NCBI RefSeq assembly: GCF_024499055.1
Contig: NZ_CP071249.1
Location: 2,225,001-2,289,000, forward strand
Direction of reading: 5' to 3'
Length of the DNA: 64,000 nucleotides
From: Turicibacter bilis
GTDB taxonomy: Bacteria > Bacillota_I > Bacilli_A > MOL361 > Turicibacteraceae
The translations under genes and the position numbers were made by a program. The notes beneath the pieces are model-generated. The model was given only the letters and a program-made list of their open reading frames with translations, had not been told where the DNA came from and did no database searches. Shown piece after piece: positions 3,289 through 58,803 of this stretch (its first letter is position 1; every line of letters begins with the position of its first letter).

Positions 3289-3336
3289 AGAAGACCTCAC
3301 CTGTAGACTGAAAGTACAGATGAGGTCTCTTTTCTT
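3289..3336 (-). terminator. Bidirectional terminator at the tnpC end of IS66
   Basis: A 13-bp stem with one mismatch (3293-3305 with 3315-3327, GACCTCACCTGTA against TACAGATGAGGTC) is flanked by A-rich DNA on the left and T-rich DNA on the right. It can stop tnpC transcription and also shield the element from transcription entering from surE. Confidence 0.8.
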
Positions 3337-4935
3337 TTAGATTCCTTTACAATATTCTTGAACATTTTTTGCCCATGGTAAAAAGTCCTCCAAGAGCTTT
3401 GGTTTCATTAAAAACTCAACATTTGGTAGGTGTTCAAATAAATAAGTTAAATACTTATAGACATTTAAGCCATGTTCCTTAGCCGTTTCGATGACGCTAT
3501 AAATGATCGTATTGGCTTCAGCCCCTGATAAGCTTGTTGAAAATAAGTAATTTTTCCGTCCAATCACCACGGTTTTGATGGCACGTTCGGCACGATTATT
3601 CGATACTTCTAATCGTCCATCTTTCAAAAATGCCATCAGTTCTTTCTTTTGATTTAAAACATAGTGAACCGCAGTTTGTAACTTACCTTTCATGGGAATG
3701 AAGCTCCCTAGAAAGTCATAAAAAGCTTCGATCACTGGCTTGACCTGTAACTGACGTTGCTCATAACGCTCCTCAGGCGATAATTCCTGGAGTTCTCGTT
3801 CAATCTTAAAAATTTGGTTACAGTAGTCAATGGCTTGTTTTGCTTTCCCATTCTTCCCTGGCACATCCTTGAACTTGCGACGGGCATGCGCCCAACATCC
3901 CACTAATTCAATATTCGGTAAGTTCTTATATCCGGAATAACCATCACAATGCAGGTAGCCTTTAAATCCATCGAGTAATTGTTCAGCGACGACTCTTGCA
4001 CGAGTTAAATCTGCGTGATAATAAACGATGGGTGTTTCGCATTCTTTACCTGTTTGAATTAACCAGATTCGTGCTTGAGAGGTTGGGTCACGTCCATCCG
4101 TTCGATTTAACACTTGATAGTGTGTTTCATCGGCATGAAGAACTTCTTCTTTTACTAAGATTTTGGCGAAATAATCGTAAAGTGGGCGTAACCAATCATT
4201 GGCGACTTTGATCATCCAGTTCGCCATGGTGCGTCGACTTAATTCTAAACCATACGTCTTCCATTCTTTCTCTTGACGATAAAGGGGGAGGCTTAATTCA
4301 TACTTTTGATGAATCATCCAGGCTAGAACACTAGGCCCAGCTAAGCTCCTTTGGATCGGTCCTTTAGGGACTTCAGCACATTGAATGGGCTGTGGTTCAT
4401 AGAAATCATCATGACAATCACACTTATAAGCGTGTGAATAGTACACTTTTTTATATAACTTGGCTGGGATAAAACAAACCTCTTCACGAATAATTTTCTT
4501 TCCTATCGGTTTCATCTTTTCACCACAAGACTCACATTGGCAAGCTTCATCGTGTAACTCACAGTGAACTTCTTCAATCGGTAAATCTTTGGTTAACTCG
4601 GCTTTACGACCGGATACCTTACGTCGACGATACGTGATTTCTTCTGTGGGTTCAGTCTTTGTTTCGTGGTTTTCTAAATGAGGATCCTCAAAAAGTGAGA
4701 GTTGATTGGGATCAACTTTAGTTTTCTCGCTTGAGGATCCAAAAAGCTTTTTTGTTAGAAATTCTACTTGTTCCGTTAATTGTTGAATTTTTAGAGTCTG
4801 CTCAGTGATTTGTTGATCTTGTTGAGTGATTCGTTGAGTTTGTTGATCCAGTTTTTTTAATAAGTTCTGATTTTCTTTGATTAGTTTTGATTCAAACGTA
4901 CTCAACGGTGCCACCTCTTTTTCTAAATGATTCAT
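3337..4935 (-). CDS. tnpC: IS66 family transposase TnpC
   Basis: A 532-residue full-length transposase. In order: an N-terminal Gln-rich coiled coil (about residues 15-65), a zinc-binding CQCESCG segment (about residue 135), and the DDE catalytic domain with Asp in VLHADET, Asp in HCDGYSGY and Glu in SNNRAERAI. The C-terminal IS66 tail follows. It is last in the tnpA-tnpB-tnpC order. No frameshift or stop interrupts it, so the protein should be functional. Confidence 0.95.
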   Translation of the reverse strand: MNHLEKEVAPLSTFESKLIKENQNLLKKLDQQTQRITQQDQQITEQTLKIQQLTEQVEFLTKKLFGSSSEKTKVDPNQLSLFEDPHLENHETKTEPTEEITYRRRKVSGRKAELTKDLPIEEVHCELHDEACQCESCGEKMKPIGKKIIREEVCFIPAKLYKKVYYSHAYKCDCHDDFYEPQPIQCAEVPKGPIQRSLAGPSVLAWMIHQKYELSLPLYRQEKEWKTYGLELSRRTMANWMIKVANDWLRPLYDYFAKILVKEEVLHADETHYQVLNRTDGRDPTSQARIWLIQTGKECETPIVYYHADLTRARVVAEQLLDGFKGYLHCDGYSGYKNLPNIELVGCWAHARRKFKDVPGKNGKAKQAIDYCNQIFKIERELQELSPEERYEQRQLQVKPVIEAFYDFLGSFIPMKGKLQTAVHYVLNQKKELMAFLKDGRLEVSNNRAERAIKTVVIGRKNYLFSTSLSGAEANTIIYSVIETAKEHGLNVYKYLTYLFEHLPNVEFLMKPKLLEDFLPWAKNVQEYCKGI

Positions 4936-4998
4936 GTTAGGCTTAGTATGCCCAAAAGTAGATAGAAAATACAGGTTTTATTACCATTTTATAATGAT

Positions 4999-5355
4999 TT
5001 AAATCAGACATCCTGTTTGAGCTGGTTTAATGGCTTTAGGTTGTTGGATAGATAAGCCTTCAAGTAGCCAACGAAGCTCCTGACTCGTTAATTTTTTGAC
5101 TTCTTCTTGGTTTCGTGGCCATTGAAGGTTACCCTTCTCAATCCGTTTATATAATAAGATAAAACCGTCTTTATCCCAATAAAGGGCTTTGAATCGATCT
5201 TTTTTTCGTCCACAAAATAGGAAAAGGGCATCGTTAAATAAATCAAGATTATACTTGTTCGTAATGATACCTGCTAGTCCATCAATGCCACAGCGCATAT
5301 CGGTGTGACCGCAAACGATAAATATGTTTTGAACATTCGAGAAATTAACGAGCAT
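4999..5355 (-). CDS. tnpB: IS66 accessory protein TnpB
   Basis: A 118-residue protein with the IS66 Orf2 signature HTDMRCGIDGLAGI near the N-terminus and ALFLFCGRKKDRFKALYWDKDG in the middle, positions conserved across this family. Family knowledge says TnpB is required for IS66 transposition, though its biochemical role is unclear. Its start codon lies inside the end of tnpA (11-bp overlap), the usual translational coupling of IS66. Confidence 0.93.
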   Translation of the reverse strand: MLVNFSNVQNIFIVCGHTDMRCGIDGLAGIITNKYNLDLFNDALFLFCGRKKDRFKALYWDKDGFILLYKRIEKGNLQWPRNQEEVKKLTSQELRWLLEGLSIQQPKAIKPAQTGCLI

Positions 5356-5524
5356 ATTTAGACATCTCCGCTAAAACGGCATGTAAGATATGTTTATCAA
5401 CTCCGTTATAAAACGTCGCTTCAGCACCGTTTATTTTGAAGTAACATGAAGGGATATCGGTATAGCGCTGATCAGATGAAGGTTGATTCAACTGAACAGG
5501 AACAATGATCGGATTTTCTTTCAT
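5345..5524 (-). CDS. tnpA: IS66 accessory protein TnpA, short form
   Basis: A 59-residue reading frame from ATG at 5524 to TAA at 5345, beginning MKENPIIVPVQLNQ and ending VLAEMSKYAR. An AGGAGG site lies about 11 bp upstream. The position, first of three genes and overlapping tnpB by 11 bp, matches the small TnpA accessory protein of Gram-positive IS66 elements, which is shorter than the Gram-negative form. Assignment rests mainly on gene order, since the sequence is short. Confidence 0.75.
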   Translation of the reverse strand: MKENPIIVPVQLNQPSSDQRYTDIPSCYFKINGAEATFYNGVDKHILHAVLAEMSKYAR

Positions 5525-21854: not shown

Positions 21855-21913
21855 CCCTATCAGTGGAGGATAGCTAAGAGTTCGTAAACTCACTATTTAG
21901 CGTAGGGAACCCA
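21855..21913. repeat. Single copy of the CCCTA-GTGGAGGA repeat module
   Basis: CCCTA-T-CAGTGGAGGA is followed by hairpins (GAGTT-CGTA-AACTC, and GCTAA with TTAGC) and closes with TAGGG-AACCCA. The same order of elements occurs three times at 57196-57334. It sits between the Crp-type gene and the zinc ATPase promoter. Confidence 0.6.
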
Positions 21914-22018
21914 CTATCAAAGTATTTTAAGAATTAAGGGTGAATTGAGATAGATAGAGTACTTTTTACTTTGTATATATAGACAGGAAGAAAGTAGTAT
22001 TTTAAGTAGGCAATTGAG

Positions 22019-41860: not shown

Positions 41861-42035
41861 GTTGAGGAAATCTTTTTAGATTGCTTATTTTTTCTGTGTA
41901 TGATACAATTAATTTAACTTAATAGTCTTTTTTTATTTAAATTTGAACCACTGTGGTAGTGTTGAACTCGAACATTGATTGAAATTTTTTGAAATATGGC
42001 ATTAAGAAATAAAATATCTCAGGAGGTACTTGACT
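41861..42035 (+). promoter_or_regulatory. Promoter and leader of the cold-shock gene
   Basis: A TATGAT -10 candidate at 41899-41904 would give a leader of about 125 nt. It contains the palindrome ACCAC-T-GTGGT (41947-41957) between two TTGAAC repeats (41943 and 41962). Long structured leaders that respond to temperature are usual for csp genes. The -35 is weak. Confidence 0.45.
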
Positions 42036-42236
42036 ATGACTACAGGTACAGTAAAATGGTTTAACTCAGAAAAAGGTTTCGGATTCATCACTGTTGAAGG
42101 TGGAAACGATGTATTCGCTCACTTCTCAGCTATCCAAGGTGAAGGATTCAAAACTTTAGAAGAAGGTCAAAAAGTTTCTTTCGAAATCGTTGAAGGTGAC
42201 CGTGGACCTCAAGCAGCTAACATCGTTAAATTATAA
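42036..42236 (+). CDS. Cold-shock protein, CspA family
   Basis: A 66-residue single OB-fold RNA chaperone with RNP1 KGFGFI and RNP2 VFAHF. It starts [18 protein letters not shown], typical of CspA/B/C/D. ATG 42036 is 9 bp after AGGAGG. Codon use resembles that of fba, as expected for an abundant protein. It is followed by a very strong terminator. Confidence 0.97.
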
Positions 42237-42254
42237 TTTTTAACTCATTAGCTT

Positions 42255-42294
42255 AAAGGCTGTGAATAGAGAATCTATTCACAGCCTTTTTTTA
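42255..42294 (+). terminator. Terminator of the cold-shock gene
   Basis: A perfect 16-bp stem (42255-42270 with 42274-42289) followed by T7. Confidence 0.93.
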
Positions 42295-47959: not shown

Positions 47960-47971
47960 TTTATATAGACT

Positions 47972-48100
47972 ATATAAGTCTAGATAAGTTTTTTACATCG
48001 TAAAAACTTTTAGCTGGACTATAGTCTGCCTTGAACGGCATGATCATCCCATATTTCGGTTGCTGTATTAAACGTAGAAAACATTTCTGTTTGTATATAG
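47972..48100. repeat. Dispersed repeat, short copy (head and tail of the 57-kb element)
   Basis: The head (ATATAAGT, then TAAGTTTTTTACAT-CG-TAAAAA) and the tail (ATATTTCGGTTG..GTA.TAAACGTAG and TTTGTATATAG) match the ends of the copy at 57154-57399. The middle differs: it has GACTATAGTC and the hairpin TGCC-TTGAAC-GGCA, ending ATCCCA, in place of the GTGGAGGA modules. Confidence 0.6.
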
Positions 48101-56131: not shown

Positions 56132-56172
56132 AAAAGATGTAGAAGGATTTACTTTCTACATCTTTTCTTTTT
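56132..56172 (+). terminator. Bidirectional terminator between alpha-galactosidase and araC
   Basis: AAAAGATGTAGAA (56132-56144) pairs with TTCTACATCTTTT (56154-56166). It overlaps the end of the minus-strand gene. Confidence 0.88.
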
Positions 56173-57031
56173 GGTGAGGATCTGTATCTCGTTTATAATA
56201 GTTTTCGGTATTAGATTTCCGATATTGAGTTGGCGTTAAGCCAGTCACTTTTTTGAAAGTTTTTGAAAAAGCAAGTGGGTCTGTGTATCCACAAGAATGA
56301 GCAATAGTATTAATTGAAAGAGTCGTATTCATTAATAATTCGGAAGCTTTCGTAATACGAAATTTAAGTAGAAATTGTTGAGGTGACAGATGCATCGTTT
56401 GTTGAAAAATGGTTGTTAAATAGGTTCGACTAAGTGAAACATAATTTGCGATATCTGCAACTAAAATAGGGTTCTGATAATTTTTTTGAATGTATTCAAT
56501 GGCTTTACTAATATAGAGATTATCAATTTCTACATCTTCTTCGTATGGAATTTCAGCTGATTTGGCAAGAGCAGCAAAGAATAAAAATAATAATCCTTGT
56601 AAGGAAAATTCATTATAGTGGCTCAATGTATCGTGCCTCATCATTTGATCGAGATAAGACTTTAACAAATCAGAATCATTGCAAGAGAAAGTATAAGTCT
56701 TTTCGTCCAATCCACTATATTTTAGATACGTTTCAGCTTTACTACCATCAAATCCAATCCATAAATAAGTCCATGGCTCCTCTTCATCCGCTTGATAAAA
56801 TGTTAACTCCTTTGGTCGAATTAAAAATCCTTGATTTTCCTCAATCGTATACTTACGCTCATTTACATAGTAATAGCCTTTTCCTTTCAATACATAATGA
56901 ATGAGATAATTAGGTCGAACTGCCGGTCCAAAAGAATAAGAAGATGGACACTCTTGATGTCCACAATATAATAAATAGAAATCTTCAAATGTTTGATCCT
57001 TAAATTTTAAAAATGAATAACTTAGTGACAT
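56156..57031 (-). CDS. AraC-family regulator, MsmR/RafR-like
   Basis: A 291-residue regulator. The N-terminal cupin sugar-sensing domain contains RPNYLIHYVLKGKGYYYV and WTYLWIGFDG, typical of MsmR/RafR regulators of alpha-galactoside genes. The C-terminal double helix-turn-helix has VADIANYVSLSRTYLTTIFQQ and IAHSCGYTDPLAFSKTFKKVTGLTPTQYRK. It faces the alpha-galactosidase gene across a shared terminator and likely activates it when melibiose or raffinose is present. Confidence 0.88.
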   Translation of the reverse strand: MSLSYSFLKFKDQTFEDFYLLYCGHQECPSSYSFGPAVRPNYLIHYVLKGKGYYYVNERKYTIEENQGFLIRPKELTFYQADEEEPWTYLWIGFDGSKAETYLKYSGLDEKTYTFSCNDSDLLKSYLDQMMRHDTLSHYNEFSLQGLLFLFFAALAKSAEIPYEEDVEIDNLYISKAIEYIQKNYQNPILVADIANYVSLSRTYLTTIFQQTMHLSPQQFLLKFRITKASELLMNTTLSINTIAHSCGYTDPLAFSKTFKKVTGLTPTQYRKSNTENYYKRDTDPHQKEKM

Positions 57032-57153
57032 ACAATCCCCTCATAATTACTAAGACATCTTTACTAAGATTATAGCGTAAAAGATGGTAAATAGATAAAA
57101 AATAACAATAAAATTGGAGAAAAAAATATGATTATGATATGCTTAACAAAGAT

Positions 57154-57399
57154 ATATAAGTTCATCTAAGTTTTTTACATTGCAAAAAGTTAACCCCCTA
57201 GCAGTGGAGGAATAGATTTCTTTCAGAAATCACTAGGTGACCCAAGCCCTACTAGCGGAGGAAACATGCTTCACATGGCAGGTGACCCAAGCCCTACTAG
57301 TGGAGGAAACATGCTTCGCATGGCAGGGTACCCACGGCAGAACTATGAAATATTTAGGTTGTCGTAGTAAATGTAGATTTTATTTTTGTTTGTATATAG
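57154..57399. repeat. Dispersed repeat with a three-module array
   Basis: Head and tail match the copy at 47972-48100. Between them are three modules: 57196-57244, 57247-57289 and 57292-57334. Each begins CCCTA, has AG(T/C)GGAGGA, a hairpin (GATTTC-TTTCA-GAAATC in the first, CATG..CATG in the others) and ends AGG..ACCCA. The last two are 45 bp apart and nearly identical. A 62-codon open frame across them is a product of the repeat and not a gene. Confidence 0.75.
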
Positions 57400-57474: not shown

Positions 57475-58803
57475 ATGGATTTTAATGCATTGAGTGGAGT
57501 CGTTGTCACTAAGGAAAGTCCTAATTATGAAGAATGTTGTTTATCTTGGAATCGTGCGATTGAGAAACACCCATTAGTTATTGTGTACTGCCAAGAGAAT
57601 CAAGATGTTATTCAGGCAATCAAGTGGGCAAAGCAATACGGAGTTCCATTTCGAATTCGTTCAGGAACTCATCATTATGAAGGTTATTCAACAGGGGATC
57701 AATTATTAGTCATTGATGTTAGTTGTATGAACCGCATTGAGTTAAATGAAACAACCGTTAAAGTTCAAGGTGGCGTTCGTAATCGTGAATTGTATGAGGC
57801 TGTTTGTGGAGCGGGTTATCCTTTTCCAGGTGGTGGGTGTCCAACGGTAGGAGTTGCTGGCTATACACTTGGTGGTGGCTGGGGATATTCTAGCCGATTA
57901 TTTGGATTAGGCTGTGACCAATTAATTGAAGCTGAGGTTATTACTGCAGAAGGGCAATTAATCGTGGCAAATGCTAATCAACATGAAGATTTATTTTGGG
58001 CGCTTCGCGGTAGCGGTGGCGGAAACTTTGGAGTGGTGACGTCATTAACGTATCGCTTACCAGAAAAAATAGAAATGGCAACATTAATCAATATTGATTA
58101 TAAACACGTTGGATTTGCCAAAGTGGTTGATGTCGCGCTTCGTTATCAACGATTCTTTAAAAATTTAGATCGTCGTTTGAATTTAAAGATGGCGATGTAT
58201 AATTCTGAAACGAAAGGAAAAGGCGTAAAGTTAACAGGACTTTTCTATGGTTCAAAAGAAGAAGCTCAAGACTTGCTATCCTTATTCCAAGATGCTACTG
58301 ATTTTGATTTTGACTATATGACTGTTTTACAAGCGAATCGTGAGATTCAAGATAGCCATCCAGAGTTTGAAATGTACCGTTCAGGTGGACGTTTTATTCA
58401 TCGTGATTATAGTGCCGATGAATTATTAACCATGTTAGATTTAATTGATGAACGTGCACAAGGTTCATTATATACAGCAATTACGTTCTATGGATTAGGT
58501 GGTGCCATTGCTGATATAGAAAAAGATGAGACAGCTTTTTATTATCGTGATGCTTCCTTTATTCTTGGTTTCCAATCGGTATGGGAAGATCCAAAGTACC
58601 GAGCTATTAATAATGAATGGGTATTAGAACGTTTTAATGTATTAGCAACCTATACACGAGGATCATTCATTAACTTCCCGATTGTGCAACCGGGTGATTA
58701 TGAAAAGAACTATTATGGAGATAATTTAGAAGCTTTAAAAGCAGTTAAAAGAAAGTATGATCCTGAAGGGATTTTTAACTTTGAACAAGCCATAAAACCA
58801 TAA
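57475..58803 (+). CDS. FAD-linked oxidase of the berberine-bridge type
   Basis: A 442-residue flavoprotein. The FAD-binding PCMH domain contains RIRSGTHHYEGYS, whose His is the usual covalent 8-alpha link, and GGGCPTVGVAGYTLGGGWGY, whose Cys can form a 6-S link, so bicovalent flavin is likely. The C-terminal BBE segment YYGDNLEALKAVKRKYDPEGIFNFEQAI is intact. Relatives oxidise sugars, oligosaccharides or alkaloid-like compounds with O2. No signal peptide. The substrate is unknown. GAGAGGT precedes the ATG. Confidence 0.88.
   Translation: MDFNALSGVVVTKESPNYEECCLSWNRAIEKHPLVIVYCQENQDVIQAIKWAKQYGVPFRIRSGTHHYEGYSTGDQLLVIDVSCMNRIELNETTVKVQGGVRNRELYEAVCGAGYPFPGGGCPTVGVAGYTLGGGWGYSSRLFGLGCDQLIEAEVITAEGQLIVANANQHEDLFWALRGSGGGNFGVVTSLTYRLPEKIEMATLINIDYKHVGFAKVVDVALRYQRFFKNLDRRLNLKMAMYNSETKGKGVKLTGLFYGSKEEAQDLLSLFQDATDFDFDYMTVLQANREIQDSHPEFEMYRSGGRFIHRDYSADELLTMLDLIDERAQGSLYTAITFYGLGGAIADIEKDETAFYYRDASFILGFQSVWEDPKYRAINNEWVLERFNVLATYTRGSFINFPIVQPGDYEKNYYGDNLEALKAVKRKYDPEGIFNFEQAIKP

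Follow-up and report, generated by a model that had tools for sequence, protein, structure and literature searches.

The window analysed in this study is a 64,000-nucleotide stretch of the Turicibacter bilis genome (here G000), in which the gap between the genes for a divergent AraC-type regulator and a BBE-type FAD oxidoreductase is occupied by a modular repeat element, with a GH36 galactosidase encoded upstream of the locus. The element, its parts, its neighbours and the related features of the window are as follows:

56156-57031, minus strand: divergent AraC-type regulator
57153-57399, plus strand: whole element, comprising head, three modules and tail; missing at the orthologous sites of sister species
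57153-57188, plus strand: head, the left arm of a MITE (TATATAAGTTCATCTAAGTTTTTTACATTGCAAAAA...), with terminal TATATA and an internal A/T hairpin (nhmmer head model; end comparison)
57195-57244, plus strand: module 1, 50 nt, apical stem GATTTC/GAAATC (covariance model R1, 72.1 bits, E=3e-16)
57246-57289, plus strand: module 2, 44 nt, CATG type (covariance model R1, 44.9 bits, E=1.1e-8)
57291-57334, plus strand: module 3, 44 nt, CATG type (covariance model R1, 34.8 bits, E=7.2e-6)
57335-57399, plus strand: type-1 tail, ending TTTGTATATAG and forming the MITE's right arm (nhmmer tail1 model, 47 bits)
57475-58803, plus strand: BBE-type FAD oxidoreductase
47971-48100, plus strand: second copy in the window, a zero-module MITE of 130 bp that represents the empty form of the element (head and tail1 matches, no module)
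21855-21979, plus strand: truncated module start followed by a type-2 tail (profile matches)
3292-5516, minus strand: IS66 copy without modules, which serves as empty-site control for the tnpB and tnpC insertions in other IS66 copies

The covariance model and a direct repeat search both recovered three modules of 44-50 bp each between head and tail, as the first-pass annotation had described, and its conserved head and tail were found to recur elsewhere in the genome by the element search and by profile models of the two parts. That annotation knew of no riboswitch or repeat family of this kind, and Rfam indeed holds no family match to the element or its modules, on which ground a riboswitch or other Rfam RNA was rejected; no report on this repeat was found in the literature. 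Elsewhere in the window, positions 41892-42289 match the Rfam cspA thermoregulator (80.4 bits against a gathering score of 78).

The element, used as query against the whole genome, matched 68 places at E<=1, while the module covariance model returned 136 matches at the same threshold, a copy number far beyond chance. Extension of the covariance model search to relatives, as had been proposed from the sequence, revealed modules in all five genomes of the genus, the four sister genomes carrying 38, 13, 39 and 25 (the last being G004). Fifty-four of 55 other genomes of the class contain no modules; the remaining genome, which belongs to a different genus within the family, carries one weak copy. 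No match to the element was obtained from plasmid and phage records or from viral contigs, collections from which near relatives may be left out.

Head-tail elements were counted using separate profile models of the head, the module and the two tail types, and the counts refer to the 276 kb of genome stretches examined rather than to every base of the genome. Within these stretches the head model identified approximately 51 copies, and 45 head-tail elements were recognised with 0 (n=13), 1 (n=9), 2 (n=10), 3 (n=11), 6 (n=1) or 9 (n=1) modules, one or two of the 13 zero-module elements being doubtful (one has a diverged insert and one ends at a stretch edge). Larger tandem units of 60-114 bp, in which the same module is enlarged by an extended apical stem or a spacer, were also observed at G000 2351167-2351630 and G004 454984-455375.

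Head and tail alone form a MITE of ~130 bp with TATATA-type inverted ends, of which 12-13 module-free copies are present, their near-inverted ends being TATATAAGTCCAGATAAG and CTTATCTGTTTATATATA; in common with other MITEs it is short, present in many copies, bounded by terminal inverted repeats and devoid of a gene. The element at 57153-57399 lacks the central GCTGGACTATAGTCTGCCTTG that is present in module-free MITEs, as comparison with the zero-module copies revealed. In sister species G003 and G002 the araC-type and BBE oxidoreductase genes are likewise neighbours, but the orthologous gap between them holds no element, and the matching site in G001 is empty as well. The TATATA ends are compatible with TA duplication, the sister empty sites being too diverged to fix the exact junction. 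These copies and empty orthologous sites point to a first mobile unit that would have spread between genes, and which an IS630-like transposase may mobilise in trans. The earlier view of head, modules and tail as one modular repeat is thus upheld for the architecture and not for its unity, since the MITE exists without modules: the element is probably a composite of two mobile units, the MITE and a separately inserting hairpin module.

This architecture is the same as that of the pneumococcal BOX element, boxA-boxBn-boxC with a variable boxB, an element interpreted by Croucher and colleagues as parasitic, MITE-like and non-autonomous (PMC3049150). The likeness, which is one of architecture, extends to a head, a variable number of hairpin units and a tail, to many intergenic copies, to a narrow host range and to MITE-like ends, the A-Bn-C order with a variable number of central units of ~45 nt being found here in 45 elements with 0-9 modules. 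A BOX-like modular MITE alone could therefore be envisaged, in which head-(module)n-tail is one transposable unit, slippage changes the number of modules and single modules are fragments left by deletion or recombination, and the identical units in the tandem array of the element at G000 2525601 would agree with such a scheme. However, the middle unit is also found inserted by itself in transposase genes and in other genes, where such single modules are precise-edged, have module-free counterparts and bear no trace of head or tail; these empty sites disfavour the BOX-like scheme, which we consider unlikely.

About 38 modules in G000 were first flagged as having neither head nor tail, a few of which actually lie inside long arrays, and many of the true single modules interrupt transposase genes. 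Three copies of IS66 tnpB are interrupted at one site, a diverged IS66 is interrupted at the same site, and further modules in G000 occupy three sites in IS66 tnpC, several in IS3 and two in ISL3. In the sister genomes, modules further disrupt IS256, radC, ssb and a gene for an aldo/keto reductase. The host families were assigned by Pfam (TnpB_IS66, DDE_Tnp_IS66, rve for IS3, ISL3, Transposase_mut for IS256, RadC and SSB), with the exception of the aldo/keto reductase, which was recognised by reading its sequence. Compared with ordinary intergenic DNA, single modules appear to be in excess in transposase genes. Two other insertions were observed in IS3 copies. A different hairpin insert of ~20 nt (CGGCGTACCCCTTGCGGGTA) lies beside the module in the copy at G000 2347584-2348042 and occurs in some IS3 copies, also in G001, while being absent from others; it is perhaps a second, even smaller insertion unit. 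The copy at G000 2377472-2377919 has an unrelated 49 bp insert upstream of its module; the G001 and G003 relatives lack this insert.

Comparison with module-free copies of each IS, which often come from the same genome, reveals clean insertions of 44-51 bp in IS66 tnpB and tnpC, IS3 and ISL3. Read on the module strand, IS66 tnpC changes from GTCAT^CG to GTCAT-TCCCTA...GTGACC-CATCG, with a second tnpC site at CCCA^CT, while the IS3 insertion point is TTTTCCATT^TCC. The 49 bp insert in radC is bordered on each side by ATGG, which reads CCAT on the module strand, where sister copies have a single ATGG. In ISL3 of G003, 44 bp are inserted between GAG and GGAGC in six copies, six full-length copies being without the insert; nine of these copies (six with and three without the module) were aligned base for base. 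The module thus inserts precisely as a single unit with a short target repeat at both ends: the target overlaps the unit's own junction GACCCATTCCC by 2-7 bases, usually including CAT, insertions usually occur at CAT with CAT flanking both sides, and 11 of the 19 distinct insertions have a CAT no more than 4 nt from the 5' end. The ISL3 and second IS3 sites share only CC or CCC with the unit, not CAT. Junctions within arrays are exactly those that a unit inserting at the CAT of the preceding unit would leave.

Modules were also found at the same codon of the C-terminal ISL3 site in several genomes (G000 1535689; G001 510182, 766871 and 1431374; G004 1395094 and 1644109; G003 845315 and 2415960). 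The ISL3 transposases concerned are only ~64% alike, so that the shared position may reflect either repeated targeting or very old inheritance. As regards the six module-bearing ISL3 copies of G003, a SNP map indicated that they have two linked SNPs in common and are otherwise mosaics with module-free copies; this shared haplotype around the module argues for a single insertion that was afterwards copied through IS transposition and gene conversion, and against six insertions.

The first-pass annotation had suggested that conserved unpaired blocks flank a stem which varies in sequence while still pairing, and this was borne out by covariation. Among 109 distinct modules aligned to the model, 93.6% of pair cells are standard pairs, pairing falls to 25-52% once the partner is slid, and 168 double-change cells were observed against 50.4 in shuffles. 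The apical stem occurs as GATTTC/GAAATC, CATTTT/AAAATG, CATGC/GCATG, TTTCAC/GTGAAA and other variants, while the bulge on the 5' side (AGTGGAGGA) and the TGACCCA at the 3' end are retained. The suspected outer stem CCTAG/CTAGG proved to be real and general among modules, alternating between CCTAGC/GCTAGG and CCTACC/GGTAGG. The case for the hairpin rests on covariation because single-sequence folding energy is not unusual (DNA z-scores of -0.64, 0.48 and -0.12 for the three window modules).

Wobbles were then used to discriminate between DNA and RNA. G-T wobbles on the module strand occupy 51 cells, against 56 cells of A-C mismatches, which are wobbles of the other strand; one column pair dominates each total, and without those columns the numbers are still close (19 G-T against 14 A-C). 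If a structured RNA acted from one strand, G-U should prevail on that strand, and the balance observed in these alignments therefore favours a palindrome acting as DNA. Modules lie on the G-rich strand with respect to replication at 50 of 81 loci (p=0.045), a bias too weak to use.

Of the two natures proposed for the unit at the outset, a structured RNA or a protein-binding DNA unit, a DNA unit consequently fits better, and a structured RNA is not supported, given the balanced wobbles and the occurrence of modules in both orientations. A functional structured RNA, whether cis-regulatory or spliced out or skipped by the ribosome so that interrupted genes still work, could account for the strong hairpin covariation, and interrupted ISL3 copies have multiplied, with few amino-acid changes between module-bearing pairs (dN/dS 0.04-0.26 in diverged pairs). 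Against this, modules lie in their host genes in both orientations and in all reading frames, intact helper copies coexist with interrupted ones, and the arrays, which stand at unrelated genes, hold anything between 0 and 9 units. Hosts have also decayed in the way inactivated genes should: the frame of the aldo/keto reductase gene is damaged further, and a frameshift is present in one of the module-bearing ISL3 copies. Exchange with intact copies means that the low dN/dS of interrupted ISL3 is no sign that these genes still function. A functional RNA is accordingly regarded as highly improbable, and a self-removing intron or ribosome-skipped insert in particular was rejected on orientation, frame and host-gene decay.

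Small palindromes inside bacterial protein-coding genes are also known as Rickettsia palindromic elements, which are ~150 bp long and keep the frame of the genes they enter (PMC10969869); the modules differ in being 44-51 bp, in ignoring frame and in usually bringing stop codons, and identity with these elements was rejected given the insert lengths (44, 45, 49 and 51 bp) and internal stops.

The movement of the hairpin was considered in relation to enzymes that the five module-bearing genomes might have in common, and neither of the two candidates checked, Y1 transposase and reverse transcriptase, is common to all of them. Y1 transposase (PF01797) gave no match in G004 despite its 25 modules and was rejected as common mover. 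In IS200/IS605-type systems hairpins are mobile as single strands, and single-strand recognition is possible for the module as well; a repeat derived from IS200/IS605 would be accompanied by a Y1 transposase wherever it occurs, and this derivation was rejected on account of G004. The same genome, together with the interruption of genes by modules, sets the module apart both from IS200/IS605 and from REP/RAYT systems, whose REPs resemble it as short imperfect hairpins beside a conserved tag (PMC3733652). Reverse transcriptase genes are present in G000, G002 and G004, and these, with the conserved hairpin, would suit spread through an RNA intermediate, whether by reverse splicing or by reverse transcription, a route that has been proposed for the GC clusters of yeast mitochondria. 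G001 and G003 have no reverse transcriptase match, yet carry many modules, and the enzyme was rejected as common mover; we therefore deem an RNA intermediate very improbable.

Returning to the composite of MITE and module, the latter would be a second mobile unit, a 44-51 bp hairpin that inserts independently, be it in the MITE, in genes for transposases, in a small number of other genes or beside an existing copy. An enzyme supplied in trans, probably a recombinase or a single-strand transposase, would recognise it as folded single-stranded or extruded DNA, and it may travel as a circle or joint intermediate with a junction that matches the target, the junction of a circular module in such an intermediate being expected to span GGTGACCCATTCCCTA. 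One idea is that the TGG of the bulge might guide insertion by pairing with CCA in the target. Re-insertion at the unit's own terminal CAT (end ...GACCCAT) would give head-to-tail arrays and so would explain the tandem arrays, some of which would then grow by slippage.

In its behaviour, the aspect compared here, the module matches the GC clusters of yeast mitochondria (GC42), mobile hairpins of ~42 bp that are flanked by a short target repeat and occur singly or in tandem (PMC4478555). Both are separately mobile hairpins with a constrained stem and a short flanking sequence, AG there and CAT here. GC clusters are mitochondrial and G+C-rich, whereas the module is bacterial and of moderate G+C, is marked by a bulge (AGTGGAGGA) and an end (TGACCCAT) that are both conserved, and occurs chiefly in the MITE and in transposase genes.

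The best reading of these data is that the module is a tiny non-autonomous mobile hairpin with GC-cluster-like behaviour and BOX-like architecture. On balance, we favour the view that it is a self-standing bacterial mobile DNA hairpin of 44-51 bp, targeting CAT, residing mainly in mobile elements and forming arrays by self-insertion, which would place it among the smallest mobile units known and make it a bacterial counterpart of the yeast mitochondrial GC clusters. Whether it merits a separate class depends on its mechanism, and it is filed here among small non-autonomous mobile repeats as a new variant.

For the cell, the module would be a genomic parasite sitting mostly in other parasites, and its effects on the neighbouring oxidoreductase and araC-type genes, if any, would be incidental. 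The system may illustrate a possible origin of BOX-type repeats, namely a hairpin unit inserting into a MITE, and it bears on the wider question of which machinery moves repeats as short as BOX and the yeast GC clusters. Given that filled and empty sites lie side by side in one genome, that the target is short and defined, and that five relatives differ in enzyme content, the machinery that moves the module can be sought and tested directly.
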